Part shown: one piece after another, positions 13,218 through 19,886 of the stretch
How positions within the stretch are numbered: the first letter of the stretch is position 1
Layout of the letters: each line of letters begins with the position of its first letter
NCBI GenBank assembly: GCA_002686195.1
Contig: NZAS01000156.1
Span: forward strand, 1-19,998
Source of the DNA: Candidatus Pacearchaeota archaeon
GTDB taxonomy: Archaea > Nanoarchaeota > Nanoarchaeia > Pacearchaeales > GW2011-AR1
Direction: 5' to 3'
Length of the DNA: 19,998 nucleotides
The notes under the pieces: generated by a model
Databases searched by the model: none
The model's input: the letters and a program-made list of their open reading frames with translations, nothing else
What the model was told of the DNA's origin: nothing
Position numbers and translations under genes: made by a program

Positions 13218-15941
13218 TTAAACCTTGGGAATATTAAAATCCAAATCAATAAGCTCTTTATCAATCCCCAACCCCAAAAATCCTTTAGTTCTTCTATACC
13301 TCTTCCAAACAAACCTAGAAATAAAGAATACAAAGACAAGAGACAAAACAATTATCCCTACAATAGACAAAGTCCTTTGATTCTCCTCAGAAATAGCAAA
13401 ACCAGTCACACCCTTAGAAGGTAAGAACACCTCAGTCAAAAACTCTTCCAAACCAGTATCGTCAGCAAAACTAAGCTTTAATTTAAACTCTCCAAAAGAA
13501 TCTTTAGGCAATTCAAACTCCAAGACCTGCTCCCCACTAAAACCAGCTCCCAAAACCACACCTTCAACCCCAGACTTTCTAACAACATCATCAAAATCGA
13601 TAAATTCATAACTCAAAGCAAGCTCATGCTCAAGCCCCCCAAACTCTTCAATCAAATAAGTAACTCTCAAATCAGTGTCAGTTCTCTCATAATCAATAAC
13701 TTCCGCCTCAAAAATATTTCTATAAACGGTCAAACCAAATGTATGGCTTGCCTGTCCTTCATCACATTCAATCAAAACCTCTCCTGAATAAACACCAATA
13801 TCAACATTCTCAGGAACATTAATAACAAAAGAATATTCAAATTTCTCCCCGCCGCTCAAACCTTTCTCCTGTTCATTAGAAATCCACGTTTCAATTGCCC
13901 CAGATCCCTTCAACTTACAATTATTCAGAAATCTCATCCACTTATTAGTAACTTCCAAATCAAATGTTTCACTTGTTCCCTTCTTCATAATAATACCTCC
14001 AAGACCAGAAAATTCCAAATTAATTTTCCTAGTACTATTTTGCGTAACTATAAAGCCACCGCCCCCACCACCGCCTTCACCAGGACTCTCAGTAGGAGGA
14101 TATGATGCCGAGGTATCAACACTAAAACTAGAACTTGTGCTGTTAGAAGTTCCAAAAGTATTGTTAACATACAAATTAGCAACAAAATCCCCATCAGTCG
14201 AAACATTAAATGTTGTATCTGCACATCCAGTAAGGGTAGTATTTGCAATAATATCTCCCCCAATACTTGTCTCCACATTATAAATACAGGTCAAATTATT
14301 CCCAGTAGCAGTATAATCCAAAGTAATTCCAGTTCTAGAACTCTTCGTTCCAGTTGGCTCACTTATAGAGACAGAAACCCCTGTAACATCAACAGAAAAA
14401 CTCACACTCTGGCTCGTTCCCAACCCATTTGTATCATTAGCATATAAATTCAAAACATAATCCCCATCCCCAGTAACATTAAACGTTGTGTTCGCACAAC
14501 TAGTAAGCGTTGCATTACTCCCTCCATCAACATTATACCAGCAAGAATCTAAATTATCATCGGCGTCACTAGCACTATAAGTCAAATTCAAAGACTCATT
14601 CGTAGTAAACAATTGTCCTGCAGTAGGATTAGAAATACTCACAGAAGGCGCCTGATTTACCAAATCATAACCTATACTAACATTTACCAAATAAGGACTT
14701 GTCCCAGCACTTGGTGTAGTAAAGTTAGCCCTATATCTAAAATACCTTGACTGCAAATTTATACTAGCAAGAGTAACATCTTGCCAGCTCCCGTCTGCAC
14801 AATCAGAACTTGAACAATTCATAACAGCAAAACTCAAGTCACTTGCCTCATTCAAACCATTCAACCCAACATTATTTGAATTAGCTCCATTATAGTTAGA
14901 AACTAAAAGAGAAAAACTCGTTCCAGAATTAATTGATTTGAAAACATCCTCACTAGAATCAATAATAAAAATATCATCGTTTGAGTCAACATAAATTCTC
15001 TGCCCCGCATTTGAATCACTCCCTCCATTATAATCATCGTTAACTAAAGTCCAAGTCACACCAGAATCAGTAGAGGCCCATAGATCTTGAACATCTAAGA
15101 TGAATAAATCATCTGTACTATTAATAGTCATATCGCTTGCACCATTTCCATTTCCAGCATTATAATCATCGTTAACTAAAGTCCAAGTTACTCCTTCATC
15201 AACAGATTGCCAAACATCTGCTTGCGTATCAACTAAAAACAAACTATTAGAACTATTAGAAGACATACCATATGCATTCTCATTCCCACCATTAAAATCA
15301 TCATTTATAGACGTAAAGTTCAATCCAGAGTCAGTTGACTTCCAAGTCTCTTGACTTCCATCAACAATAAAAATATTATCGTTTGAATCCACCTCAATAA
15401 CTTGACCTGAACTACCATCTCCTGGATTAAAGTCATCATTCACTTTTGTCCAGCTCACACCATCAGTAGAACTCCATAGATCCTGCCCATTCATAATAAA
15501 CAAACTTCCCGAACTGTTCTTAACCATATAGTCTGCACTATTACCATCTCCTCCATTATAATCATCCTTAACCAACACCCATGTGACTCCATCCGTAGAA
15601 CTAAATATATCAGCATCTCTATCAACAGCATACAAGCTCTCAGCACCTGGCTCCCCTCCATTATAAGTCAAATTATTCCACGTTGCAGAATCTGTTGCAT
15701 CAAAAACCTGTGATGTAAAACTCCCAGTAGTATTTGTCCCAGTCAATATCACAGAAGTTCCATTATAACTAGTATTAACATAAGTCCCAGCATCAAAATC
15801 ACTTTGCCCAGTATCAGAAAAAATAGCAAAACCTGTAAACCCTCCAAATTGAATAAACTGCAAAACTCCTAACAAAGCCGCAAATGCCAGCAATAAAACA
15901 AAAAACTGGATCACCTTTCTTTTCATACTCTTTCTTATCAT
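13218..15941 (-). CDS. Large surface protein with Asp-box propeller and two membrane anchors
   Basis: 907 residues, exported. An N-terminal hydrophobic helix (about 9-32) is followed by TGFAI at 36-40. Residues ~103-350 hold six repeats of about 41 residues with LFIVD...W.STDSGVTWTLVNDDYNGG, i.e. Asp-box (BNR-like) motifs, probably a six-bladed beta-propeller. Two Ig/cadherin-like modules follow (PSVSISNPTAGQLFTTNESL; VSVSISEPTGTKSSRTGITL), each ending with Ser/Asn/Thr-rich Asn-glycosylation sequons. A polyglycine linker leads to further beta domains (LEFSGLGGIIMKKGTSETF). A second TGFAI at 846-850 precedes the C-terminal helix (IVGIIVLSLVFVFFISRF) and a basic tail. Adhesion or sensing at the envelope is inferred. 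An internal start at 15926 (MKRKV) is also possible. Confidence 0.88.
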   Translation of the reverse strand: MIRKSMKRKVIQFFVLLLAFAALLGVLQFIQFGGFTGFAIFSDTGQSDFDAGTYVNTSYNGTSVILTGTNTTGSFTSQVFDATDSATWNNLTYNGGEPGAESLYAVDRDADIFSSTDGVTWVLVKDDYNGGDGNSADYMVKNSSGSLFIMNGQDLWSSTDGVSWTKVNDDFNPGDGSSGQVIEVDSNDNIFIVDGSQETWKSTDSGLNFTSINDDFNGGNENAYGMSSNSSNSLFLVDTQADVWQSVDEGVTWTLVNDDYNAGNGNGASDMTINSTDDLFILDVQDLWASTDSGVTWTLVNDDYNGGSDSNAGQRIYVDSNDDIFIIDSSEDVFKSINSGTSFSLLVSNYNGANSNNVGLNGLNEASDLSFAVMNCSSSDCADGSWQDVTLASINLQSRYFRYRANFTTPSAGTSPYLVNVSIGYDLVNQAPSVSISNPTAGQLFTTNESLNLTYSASDADDNLDSCWYNVDGGSNATLTSCANTTFNVTGDGDYVLNLYANDTNGLGTSQSVSFSVDVTGVSVSISEPTGTKSSRTGITLDYTATGNNLTCIYNVETSIGGDIIANTTLTGCADTTFNVSTDGDFVANLYVNNTFGTSNSTSSSFSVDTSASYPPTESPGEGGGGGGGFIVTQNSTRKINLEFSGLGGIIMKKGTSETFDLEVTNKWMRFLNNCKLKGSGAIETWISNEQEKGLSGGEKFEYSFVINVPENVDIGVYSGEVLIECDEGQASHTFGLTVYRNIFEAEVIDYERTDTDLRVTYLIEEFGGLEHELALSYEFIDFDDVVRKSGVEGVVLGAGFSGEQVLEFELPKDSFGEFKLKLSFADDTGLEEFLTEVFLPSKGVTGFAISEENQRTLSIVGIIVLSLVFVFFISRFVWKRYRRTKGFLGLGIDKELIDLDFNIPKV

Positions 15942-16902: not shown

Positions 16903-17151
16903 TTATTTCTCAACAGAAGTACTTGCAGGTGAAATATAAATTATTGTATCTCCCCTTACAAAAGTCAAACCAATGTTTTTCTTTATTTCGCCTTCTACCA
17001 TTTCTTTCGCATTGTCCAATACAACATTGATATGTATATCGAATGCAACCAAAGTTCCGACGTATTGCTTGTCTCCCTTCAACTGCACTAACACTTCTTT
17101 GCCTTTTGATTGGTTCAAAAGATCCAATGGTCGTTCAATTCCGCTTGCCAT
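16903..17151 (-). CDS. LSm (Sm-like archaeal) RNA-binding protein
   Basis: 82-residue Sm-fold protein forming heptameric or hexameric rings that bind U-rich RNA. Sm1 motif: VLVQLKGDKQYVGTLVAFD (residues 20-38) with HINVVLDNA; Sm2 motif: LTFVRGDTIIYIS (62-74), whose RGD-type loop binds uridine. ERPLDLLNQSKGKEV is the usual N-terminal helix. The C-terminus is a short Ser/Thr tail. It is divergent from eS8, with which it shares the 180-nt region carrying a G-quadruplex repeat and two hairpins. Confidence 0.95.
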   Translation of the reverse strand: MASGIERPLDLLNQSKGKEVLVQLKGDKQYVGTLVAFDIHINVVLDNAKEMVEGEIKKNIGLTFVRGDTIIYISPASTSVEK

Positions 17152-17331: not shown

Positions 17332-17694
17332 ATGGCACACGGAAGAAAAATATCAAGTGGGAAATACCACAAGCAAAAAAAGAAAAAGTTTTATGAAAAG
17401 CAAAGCCAAGAAAGACAAGTAACAATCGGAGATCCAAAAAGAAAATCATTAAGAACTCAAGGCGGAAACAAAAAATCCATATTGCTAAAAACAAATCAAG
17501 TAAATGTTCTAGTAAAAGACAAAACCCAAAAGGCAGAAATCAAAAACGTTTCAGAAACCCCTCAAAACCGTTTCTTAGCAAGACAGAACAGATTGCTAAA
17601 AGGTGCAATAATTGAAACATCCTTAGGCAAAGCCAAAATCACTAACCGTCCTTCTCAGGAAGGCCAAATCAATGCTATTCTTTTAGAGGAATAA
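17332..17694 (+). CDS. rps8e: Small-subunit ribosomal protein eS8
   Basis: Archaeal/eukaryotic small-subunit protein. The N-terminus MAHGRKISSGKYHKQKKKKF is the family signature, followed by RKSLRTQGGNKKSILLKTNQ and NRFLARQNRLLKGAIIETSLGKAKITNRPSQEGQINAILL (given here as fragments NRFLARQNRLLKGAII and KITNRPSQEGQINAILL). Length 120 matches the compact archaeal form. It stands alone, with TATA box at 17302 and probable leaderless start. TFB follows 110 nt downstream on the same strand behind its own TATA element. Confidence 0.97.
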   Translation: MAHGRKISSGKYHKQKKKKFYEKQSQERQVTIGDPKRKSLRTQGGNKKSILLKTNQVNVLVKDKTQKAEIKNVSETPQNRFLARQNRLLKGAIIETSLGKAKITNRPSQEGQINAILLEE

Positions 17695-17804: not shown

Positions 17805-18740
17805 ATGTCAAACCAAGTAAAAACATGCCCAGACTGCGGATCCGTAAATCTTACATACGATGAACAAAGAGGCGAAATTGTTTGTAATGACTGCGGTTTA
17901 ATCGTAGAAGAGAAAATGGTAGACACTGGCCAAGACGCAGGAGGCCAATTCGACAAATCAGAAAAGAAAGGCAGGGGCGGAGCTCCAATTTCTATGCAAA
18001 AATTCGACAAGGGATTAACAACAAACGTGGGTGAAATCTCAGATATTTACAAATTAGAAGCAGGACAAACAAGAAAATTCTTAAGACTAAAAAAATGGCA
18101 AGAACGTGTCTCAACATCCATAGAAAGAAATCTAAGATTAGCAATGGCAGAACTCCGAAGAGTAGCTTCTTTCTTAAGTCTCCCTTCTGTAGTAAGAGAC
18201 GAAGCCTCAAGAGTTTACAATTATGTCTTACAAAGAGGTCTAGTTCGTGGAAGATCTATGGAATCAGTAATTGCAGCTTGCATCTATGCTGCTTGTAGAT
18301 CTTACAACATTCCAAGAACCCTAGATGAAATCGCAAACGCGTCAGATGTAGAAAGAAAAGAAATCGGAAGAACTTACAGATTCATAGTAAGAAAACTAAA
18401 AATCAAAGTTACTCCCTCAAGTCCAAAAGATTACATCTCAAGATTCTCTTCAATCTTACACCTTTCTCCAAAATCCCAAAACGAAGCCCTTAAAATATTA
18501 AAGAAAGCAGACATCTCTGAACTCACAAGTGGAAGAGGCCCAGCAGGAATTGCAGCAGCAGCCCTTTACGTCGCAGCCCTACTAAACGATGAAAAGAAAA
18601 CACAAAGAGAAGTCGCTGACGTCGCAGGAATAACAGAAGTCACAATAAGAAACAGATACAAAGAACTAATCGACAAACTCAAACTTGACAGCAAACTCCA
18701 AGCCAAAGTCGCCGCCGTTGAAAAAGCAACTAAGAAATAA
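17805..18740 (+). CDS. tfb: Transcription initiation factor B (TFB)
   Basis: Homologue of TFIIB that bridges TBP-DNA and RNA polymerase. The N-terminal zinc ribbon uses C8, C11, C27, C30 (CPDCGS; CNDCGLI). The B-reader/linker follows, then two cyclin-like repeats (about 108-205 and 206-300) with SVIAACIYAACR, DVERKEIGRTYRFI, GPAGIAAAALYVA and a BRE-binding helix EVTIRNRYKEL. 311 residues is normal. The B-reader is divergent: the usual EWRAFD after the zinc ribbon reads QDAGGQFD, and the RERRSRTGAP-type segment reads EKKGRGGAP. This might alter start-site selection; whether it is common in the lineage I cannot say. The stop overlaps the sigma-like gene's stop by 11 nt. Confidence 0.97.
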   Translation: MSNQVKTCPDCGSVNLTYDEQRGEIVCNDCGLIVEEKMVDTGQDAGGQFDKSEKKGRGGAPISMQKFDKGLTTNVGEISDIYKLEAGQTRKFLRLKKWQERVSTSIERNLRLAMAELRRVASFLSLPSVVRDEASRVYNYVLQRGLVRGRSMESVIAACIYAACRSYNIPRTLDEIANASDVERKEIGRTYRFIVRKLKIKVTPSSPKDYISRFSSILHLSPKSQNEALKILKKADISELTSGRGPAGIAAAALYVAALLNDEKKTQREVADVAGITEVTIRNRYKELIDKLKLDSKLQAKVAAVEKATKK

Positions 18741-19524
18741 ATCCTTCATTAGAACCTTCTACTTCAGCACGCCCCCTGATTTTTTCCAAAGCCCTCAATT
18801 CAACTTGCCTAACTCTCTCCTTAGTTAATTTTACAATTTTTCCAACATTCTCAAGTGTTGACACCTTTTCTCTACATCCTCCTTTTCTCCGATAAAGCCC
18901 ATATCTTCTTCTGATAATATAACTCTCCCTACTATTAAGACTGCCTAAATGTCTCTCAATCCAATATCCAGTATCTTTATCAGAAACTTGAGAACTCGGA
19001 TCTTCGAAATAAGGGTCTTTAATGAACTCATGTCTACTAAGACCATCCTCCGTGACTTCATCATCCAAAGAAATAAGATCTCTCCTTTGAGATAATCTAT
19101 AAACCGCATTATAAAGACTTCTTCCATAATAAGTACTAAACTTAATATCATTATGTTCTACAATATCAAACTTATCCCAACTTTCAAGTAACTTTTCCTG
19201 GCCAGAACTAAAAATATCCCTAATATCAACACTTGGAAATTTTTCTGAAAATCTAGCACTTAACGCCCTTACTAATCTCATATTACTTTTAAGAAAATAA
19301 TTTCTAATTCTTACTTCTCTCCTTCTTAATTGTTCTATTCTATTAGATATCGATTGTGCATCTCCATTGGCATCTTCCATTCCTTCTTCCAAAACACTGA
19401 TATCAGCTCTGATTCTATCCTTCGTTAAAAAGAACCTTCTTTCATTTTCTCTAGAAAATCCTCCAGCATTCTCAGAAAACCCATAAGCTTCCGCTTCTTC
19501 CGGTTTAAAATAGAGATCTACCAT
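18730..19524 (-). CDS. Sigma-70-family-like transcription factor in an archaeal context
   Basis: 264 residues with the organisation of a bacterial sigma factor. Residues ~72-145 match region 2: NMRLVRALSARF, then DIRDIFSSGQEKLLESWDKFD and FSTYYGRSLYNAVYRLS, parallel to the bacterial N-L-R-L-V, D-L-I-Q-E-G-x-x-G-L, K-F-D and F-S-T-Y-A patterns. Region 3 is absent or reduced to a linker starting ISLDDEVTEDG. Residues 196-251 match region 4: LNSRESYIIRRRYGL and TLENVGKIVKLTKERVRQVELRALEKI, including the region 4.2 helix-turn-helix. The aromatic residues of region 2.3-2.4 that melt the -10 element are partly replaced. Function with archaeal polymerase is unproven: promoter factor, anti-TFB competitor or polymerase-independent DNA binder are all possible. 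Base composition is like its neighbours. Confidence 0.85.
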   Translation of the reverse strand: MVDLYFKPEEAEAYGFSENAGGFSRENERRFFLTKDRIRADISVLEEGMEDANGDAQSISNRIEQLRRREVRIRNYFLKSNMRLVRALSARFSEKFPSVDIRDIFSSGQEKLLESWDKFDIVEHNDIKFSTYYGRSLYNAVYRLSQRRDLISLDDEVTEDGLSRHEFIKDPYFEDPSSQVSDKDTGYWIERHLGSLNSRESYIIRRRYGLYRRKGGCREKVSTLENVGKIVKLTKERVRQVELRALEKIRGRAEVEGSNEGFIS

Positions 19525-19549: not shown

Positions 19550-19560
19550 ACTATATAAAA
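19550..19560 (-). promoter_or_regulatory. TATA box of the sigma-like gene
   Basis: Minus-strand tttttatatag lies about 30 nt before the ATG at 19524. It looks like the archaeal TATA elements elsewhere in the window and has no bacterial -35/-10 pair beside it. Confidence 0.5.
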
Positions 19561-19569
19561 AGTCTTCTA

Positions 19570-19676: not shown

Positions 19677-19760
19677 GCGGGCGTGCCGGAGTGGTCAAAC
19701 GGGACAGGCTTAGGACCTGTTAGCTTAGTGCTTACAAAGGTTCGAATCCTTTCGCCCGCA
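19677..19760 (+). tRNA. tRNA-Leu (UAG)
   Basis: Class II tRNA of 84 nt. Acceptor GCGGGCG/CGCCCGC fully paired, discriminator A as for Leu. Anticodon stem ACAGG/CCTGT, loop CTTAGGA with anticodon TAG, a long variable arm (tagcttagtgcttac) and T arm AAAGG-TTCGAAT-CCTTT. No intron. CCA is not encoded. Upstream tttttataag is very close to the 5' end, so the exact promoter is uncertain. Confidence 0.95.
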
Positions 19761-19886
19761 TTTATGATATCTCAAAGAGATATCATTTATTCTCTGGGAA
19801 TTAGAAGCTCAAGGTTCAAATACTTCAATCTCGTTAGAGTTGAAGTTACCGCGGAGCTTTGCTCTGCGAGTACCTTTCGCCCGCAT
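19748..19886 (+). repeat. Duplicated tRNA-Leu 3' end enclosing three hairpins
   Basis: The 14-nt cctttcgcccgcat ends the tRNA (19748-19761) and recurs at 19873-19886. Between them are ATGATATCTC-AAA-GAGATATCAT (19764-19786, 10 bp), ACTTCAA-CTC-GTTA-GAG-TTGAAGT with one bulge (19822-19846) and CGCGGAGC-TTT-GCTCTGCG (19850-19868, one G-U). A T-loop-like aaggttcaaat (19811-19821) precedes the second hairpin. No gene is inside. Confidence 0.8.

Follow-up and report, generated by a model that had tools for sequence, protein, structure and literature searches.

The sigma-70-family gene and its locus

The window, by which we mean the whole 19,998-nt stretch of Candidatus Pacearchaeota DNA analyzed here, carries an intact sigma-70-family open reading frame (ORF) of 264 aa with an ATG start, located between a convergent gene for the archaeal initiation factor TFB and a tRNA-Leu gene (Table 1). 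A preliminary description of this DNA had placed a sigma-70-like protein at 18730..19524; the ORF has exactly these limits, matches sigma-70 profiles and contains all the motifs that were quoted for it (NMRLVRAL, KFD, FSTYYGRSL, TLENVGKI and ERVRQVELRALEKI). The 3' ends of the sigma ORF and the TFB gene share 11 bp, and the tRNA-Leu gene starts 152 bp past the sigma start codon.

Table 1. Features at and around the sigma gene, in window coordinates
Feature	Position	Strand	Basis or remark
Sigma-70-family protein	18730..19524	-	ORF, profile matches, predicted structure
Sigma-2, residues about 70-147	19084..19317	-	
Region 3.2 / sigma-finger-like linker, residues about 148-186, ISLDDEVTEDGLSRHEFIKDP...	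18967..19083	-	
Sigma-4 with helix-turn-helix, residues about 187-250	18775..18966	-	Pfam Sigma70_r4 over cut-off
TATA-box-like TTTTTATATA	19552..19561	-	Sequence; 28 to 37 nt upstream of sigma ATG
TFB (archaeal initiation factor B), convergent	17805..18740	+	Pfam TFIIB E 1.4e-47 and zinc ribbon
tRNA-Leu (TAG), conserved archaeal neighbour, other side of sigma from TFB	19677..19760	+	
Ribosomal protein S8e, archaeal context	17332..17694	+	Profile match and synteny
LSM (Sm-like) protein, archaeal context	16903..17151	-	Profile match and synteny

Two further observations were made in the window. The 3' end of the tRNA-Leu gene occurs as a 14-bp exact direct repeat (19748-19761 and 19873-19886, 125 bp apart), which resembles the attachment-site scar of a tRNA-integrated element. 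In addition, positions 13218-15941 of the minus strand encode a 907-aa protein, perhaps a surface protein; by eye, STDGVTW-like motifs recur in it and hydrophobic stretches lie close to each terminus.

Family membership and domain architecture

We compared the sigma protein with profile libraries. The NCBIfam model TIGR02937 (sigma70-ECF) matched residues 74-251 with 55.6 bits (cut-off 42.9, E 4.7e-15), and Pfam Sigma70_r4 matched with 35.2 bits (cut-off 24.1, E 8.5e-9). TIGR02393 (RpoD_Cterm) scored 80.4 bits (E 1.5e-22), which is under its equivalog cut-off of 354; Pfam Sigma70_r2 reached 13.6 bits, under its cut-off of 24 (E 0.059), and PF04539 (sigma-3) showed no match in the Pfam scan. 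Matches to PHROG 351, a sigma factor (E 1.8e-18), and to a PDB SigA chain (E 2.3e-11) were also obtained. Of the region 2 and region 4 patterns named in the preliminary description, region 4 is therefore backed by its Pfam profile, as is the assignment to the superfamily, whereas region 2 stays below threshold. The TFB next door also passed the Sigma70_r4 cut-off (26.4 bits vs 24.1). Therefore, a Sigma70_r4 match alone is not diagnostic of a sigma factor in an archaeon, and annotation by this domain alone could mistake TFB for one.

Structure prediction of the sigma protein alone gave a sigma-2 fold, recognized by superposition of the sigma-2 part. Whole-length superpositions were poor (rmsd >20 A, TM-scores of 0.25-0.39 among the matches listed) because the two parts of the model are placed freely, and the structural comparison uses the sigma-2 fit alone. 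At the level of profiles and predicted fold, it is confirmed that the ORF encodes a sigma-70-family protein.

The domain order in Table 1 is preceded by N-terminal helices (residues about 25-80) that are region 1.2-like. The linker is largely of low confidence in the predicted model, and the sigma-3 domain is missing, with almost zero residues opposite RpoD sigma-3 in the alignment. RpoD/SigA is the best alignment partner of the linker and region 4 and has the sigma-2 fold in common with the window protein, but it also has sigma-3, the large non-conserved region and region 1.1, all three of which the window protein lacks. ECF (group 4) proteins likewise consist of sigma-2 and sigma-4 without sigma-3, in line with the TIGR02937 match over cut-off. 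Unlike them, however, the window protein has a finger-like linker, an RpoD-like sigma-4 and an extra N-terminal region, and it scores higher with RpoD_Cterm than with the ECF-named superfamily model (80.4 vs 55.6 bits).

We then considered individual residues, whose numbering and roles (R584, E585, R586, R588 and Q589 in sigma-4) we take to be as in E. coli RpoD. In sigma-2, DIFSSG lies opposite DLIQEG of E. coli RpoD and KFSTYYGRSLYNAVYR lies opposite KFSTYATWWIRQAITR; D403 is retained, Q406 and E407 are both replaced by S, and the region 2.3 tryptophan pair is replaced by R-S. The sigma-4 recognition helix reads KERVRQVE, so that E585, R586, R588 and Q589 are retained in the alignment and R584 is changed to K. 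Position 407 is presumably a core RNA polymerase contact, and E585 and Q589 are presumably -35 contacts. In a set of selected, non-independent rows, the bacterial ones picked by likeness to the query, position 407 was E or D in 30/30 bacterial rows and non-acidic in 12 of the 35 archaeal-group rows (S in the window protein, A in its homologue P0002, and 10/33 others), and E585 and Q589 were each retained in 33/35 archaeal-group rows, P0002 counted. Conserved positions between the window protein and P0002 amount to 55/78 in sigma-2, 27/39 in the linker and 44/64 in sigma-4, with the N-terminus conserved alike; therefore, no region looks like a relic.

Archaeal context of the sigma gene

Among ten proteins scanned on the contig, archaeal genes were found for TFB, S8e, LSM, tRNase Z, aIF1A and a tRNA-splicing endonuclease. 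The TFB reaches 94% identity with TFB of Candidatus Pacearchaeota contigs, and the flanking tRNA-Leu reaches 94% with its counterpart in a related genome. Of 80 TFB loci from related genomes, 59 carry a tRNA-Leu gene on one or the other strand no more than 5 kb downstream of TFB, and a contig end is the reason for its absence in several of the other 21; the sigma gene occupies this conserved TFB/tRNA-Leu gap. Its codon score (0.305 per codon) was the second highest of 19 window genes (range -0.159 to 0.345), on a background of mostly minus-strand genes, which score above plus-strand ones and favour the sigma gene somewhat. Judged by eye, several other genes of the window are likewise preceded by a TATA-like box.

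An assembly chimera or bacterial contamination would agree with the very small number of close relatives of the sigma protein. Contamination may in fact account for L112, a sigma from an archaeal bin that groups tightly with bacterial-type RpoD and could be a contaminant. In the window, however, the sigma gene is flanked by TFB and S8e on one side and by an archaeal tRNA-Leu gene on the opposite side, this gene order is conserved, the 11-bp convergent overlap with TFB is unbroken, codon usage looks native, and there are records of the protein from 5 contigs. Mis-assembly is very unlikely because of the TFB/tRNA-Leu order, the tRNA identity, the native-looking codons and the TATA-like box. We therefore regard this explanation as scarcely credible and rejected it for the window on sequence grounds (context, TFB overlap, codon usage). 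The preliminary description had raised the possibility that the contig is a bacterial-archaeal chimera at this point; as far as gene order and codons tell, it is not.

We also rejected the idea that TFB and the sigma gene form an operon, as the two run towards each other and neither tblastn (E 0.01) nor an HMM built from archaeal sigma proteins, the window's included, which is blind to ECF types, detected a homologue of the sigma protein in the 80 TFB loci. This HMM missed an ECF-looking sigma ORF (L085, G018:C3:15358-15807) at locus L018, which occupies the TFB/tRNA-Leu gap there and points the same way as the sigma gene of the window; ORFs downstream of TFB were read in 30 of the 80 loci. 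We treat this ORF as a case of a shared insertion spot or of coincidence, not of orthology. A phage origin was likewise rejected, as no phage relatives were found: tblastn of the sigma protein against 50,697 phage records gave zero matches at E 1e-3, and viral contigs scanned with the two-row alignment described below yielded no relative, which is a weak test using patterns from the N-terminal half only.

Relatives and phylogeny

A single-sequence search of about 5.8 billion proteins, which scores only candidates with exact shared words, returned one close homologue, P0002, which is 69% identical and is encoded on a 1005-bp contig. The next matches were two proteins with the full sigma-70 domain set (E 4e-7 and 5e-5). 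Of 8,000 candidates scored with a two-row profile made from the sigma protein and P0002, 3,922 matched at E up to 1. After P0002, the best of these were sigma-70-family proteins with regions 2 and 4 and without region 3, and RpoD types were mixed in further down the best 120 of the 3,922. The sigma-3-less proteins with an organism name among these best 120 belonged to Planctomycetota, namely P0006 (Tepidisphaeraceae), P0015 (Phycisphaerae), P0054 and P0061 (Planctomycetes/Planctomycetota), and P0092 and P0111 (Phycisphaeraceae).

Like the window protein, the sigma-3-less relatives have PF04542 and PF04545 without PF04539, the sigma-2 match of the window protein being sub-threshold. They show about 27-35% identity over 67-97% of the window protein among the matches listed, and its N-terminal helices are often included in the match. 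They also share the change of Q406 to S, the loss of W433/W434 and a TKERVRQ-type recognition helix. However, they keep an acidic residue at position 407 (13/13 aligned rows), where the window protein has S; its ISLDDEVTEDG stretch is absent from the sigma-3-less relatives shown; and the window protein and P0002 form a deep branch of their own.

We built a tree of 65 rows, in which bacterial rows are few and were picked by similarity, and from which 9/22 bacterial sigma-3-less rows and five short or very divergent archaeal ones (L133, L126, L095, L131 and L124) were left out. In this tree the archaeal label has to change 11 times, with six or more of the changes forced by well-supported branches, and we therefore suggest that sigma genes were transferred into archaea several times. 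The window protein and P0002 form a pair (100/97) on a deep branch beside two very long archaeal branches. A starred split (96/91) joins them, next to long branches, with 13 bacterial sigma-3-less rows and 7 other archaeal rows, and the nearest rows to the window protein by path length after P0002 are RpoD rows; we are unsure of the exact place of the pair. The preliminary description had proposed an ancient transfer that is now domesticated. Bacterial ancestry agrees with our results, but for archaeal sigmas at large a single event does not, since the tree needs several. The view of a sigma-70 of bacterial ancestry in an archaeal chromosome is upheld, and the gene looks domesticated in its codons, its TATA-like box and its evenly conserved 69% homologue.

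The tree also contains a supported archaeal clade (98/89) of ten full-length sigma-70 rows (L115, L119, L122, L123, L127, L132, L134, L135 and L136, with L134 representing two adjacent genes in G176). This clade is perhaps an old archaeal sigma lineage.

Sigma-70 proteins in other archaea

In textbook accounts, bacterial transcription is set apart from archaeal by its use of sigma factors instead of TBP/TFB. Rinke et al. 2013 (Nature) reportedly described archaea with complete sigma factors. We scanned 79 related genomes for the sigma-70 superfamily: TIGR02937 was over cut-off in 29 of them (17/40 and 12/39), one of which, G002, is doubtful, passing only by summing weak pieces. In a control set of ten bacteria and four archaea, 10/14 genomes passed in both scans, the passing ten being given as a count only. 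The two-row profile matched 35 of the 200 genomes searched in the order at E up to 1e-3 and, with the limit set to 1e-8, 26 of the 371 searched in the phylum, the searched genomes coming without completeness values.

The architectures of the other archaeal sigma ORFs were read by eye from sequence. We distinguished full-length RpoD-like forms (L205, L206, L136), ECF-like forms (L083, L085, L088), sigma-3-less forms (L208, L111, L128, L094) and proteins with a Cro-type HTH and sigma region 4 but without region 2 (L116, L118, L121, L140). The joining of a Cro-type HTH to region 4 is a recurring archaeal protein design. In addition, one 513-aa ORF (L089, G028:C218) has two sigma-like matches in tandem. 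Some archaeal sigma genes are clearly chromosomal: in G177 the sigma gene is on a 623-kb contig that also carries TFB, and in G197 the divergent sigma L139 shares a 62-kb contig with Rpo1.

PMC8204110 reports sigma-70 genes in DPANN as particularly prevalent in Woesearchaeota, with mis-binning excluded by co-encoded proteins, anti-sigma factors not identified and the mechanism unclear. Its family fam00359 is, like the window protein, a sigma-70 in archaeal genomes with TBP, TFB and TFE; the passages on it stress Woesearchaeota and do not describe sigma-3-less forms such as the window protein. Thus, a sigma-70 in an archaeon, which the preliminary description could not place as known or new, is already in print, and the window protein is an unusual variant. 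Among the matches listed from the open-licence literature, there was no experimental test of an archaeal sigma.

The polymerase and the possible role of the protein

Bacterial rpoB (TIGR02013) was over cut-off in none of 30 related genomes, which were hand-chosen, most for having a sigma match; 29 of them gave a weaker match, as expected of archaeal Rpo2, and G017 gave none. Therefore, a sigma in these genomes presumably must use the archaeal polymerase. We next compared Rpo1 and Rpo2 of relatives, as stand-ins for those of the window organism. The clamp coiled coil was present in all six readable Rpo1 sequences (eight were tried, L200 and L202 being left out; two further loci, L203 and L204, one of them a broken gene, were unused). 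In the same six, the E. coli clamp positions R275, E295 and A302, which we take to be sigma contacts, are A, L and H. The flap-tip insertion of beta, presumably the docking site of sigma-4 on the bacterial polymerase, was absent in 10/10 related Rpo2 sequences.

The interpretation that best fits these sequence data is that of a domesticated sigma which would still read DNA and whose polymerase contact has changed, being either redirected to the archaeal clamp or lost altogether. A bacterial sigma-70-family gene would have been transferred into the Pacearchaeota lineage and then domesticated, and its transcription probably depends on an archaeal TATA promoter, in a genome that also has a complete TFB. 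We infer that the protein binds the archaeal polymerase and selects promoters: sigma-2 may dock on the Rpo1 clamp coiled coil via its altered surface, the finger-like linker may enter the polymerase cleft, and sigma-4 may read a -35-like element. We see an even chance that the protein would work in this way together with the archaeal RNA polymerase, as an accessory factor for initiation at specific promoters or for DNA binding. The preliminary description had proposed action with or against the archaeal polymerase, and the evidence on this is mixed. The family and fold, the archaeal embedding, the native-looking codons and TATA-like box, the even conservation between the window protein and P0002, the -35-reading residues, the lack of bacterial rpoB in the genomes tested, the clamp coil and the superfamily matches in 29/79 related genomes speak for such a role, whereas the missing flap tip, the loss of E407, the changed clamp contacts, the sub-threshold Sigma70_r2 match and the R-S pair speak against it. 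A more specific version, which we think rather unlikely, is that in some Pacearchaeota a domesticated sigma-70 uses the clamp alone, without a flap tip, and brings the archaeal polymerase to bacterial-type -35 promoters beside TBP/TFB, the window protein being a slimmed two-domain-plus-finger version. In a lineage with many sigma genes gained repeatedly, changed core contacts and no bacterial rpoB in the genomes tested, a possible re-wiring of sigma to the archaeal polymerase is directly testable.

The loss of E407, with non-acidic residues in 12/35 archaeal-group rows vs 0/30 bacterial rows, together with the retention of E585 in 33/35, would also be expected of a DNA-binding regulator without a sigma-like polymerase contact. 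Its sigma-4 would read a promoter element and repress or activate TBP/TFB promoters, for example by covering them, and sigma-2 and the linker would be a dimerisation or single-strand-binding part. The relatives' Rpo2, with no flap tip for sigma-4, and the proteins of Cro-type HTH and sigma-4 only that we saw by eye in these archaea point in the same direction. However, sigma-2 and the linker are conserved between the window protein and P0002 as well as sigma-4 is, which would be needless for a pure sigma-4 regulator. We consider such a regulator a possible but less probable alternative to an accessory factor acting with the polymerase.

The sigma could also be delivered to the polymerase of a bacterial partner and redirect the partner's transcription. 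PMC8204110 proposes, based on large murein-transglycosylase-domain proteins, that some Pacearchaeota/Woesearchaeota might be bacterial episymbionts, and the -35-reading residues of the window protein are retained. However, the residues that would hold the bacterial core are partly lost, and delivery to a partner seems to us very unlikely.
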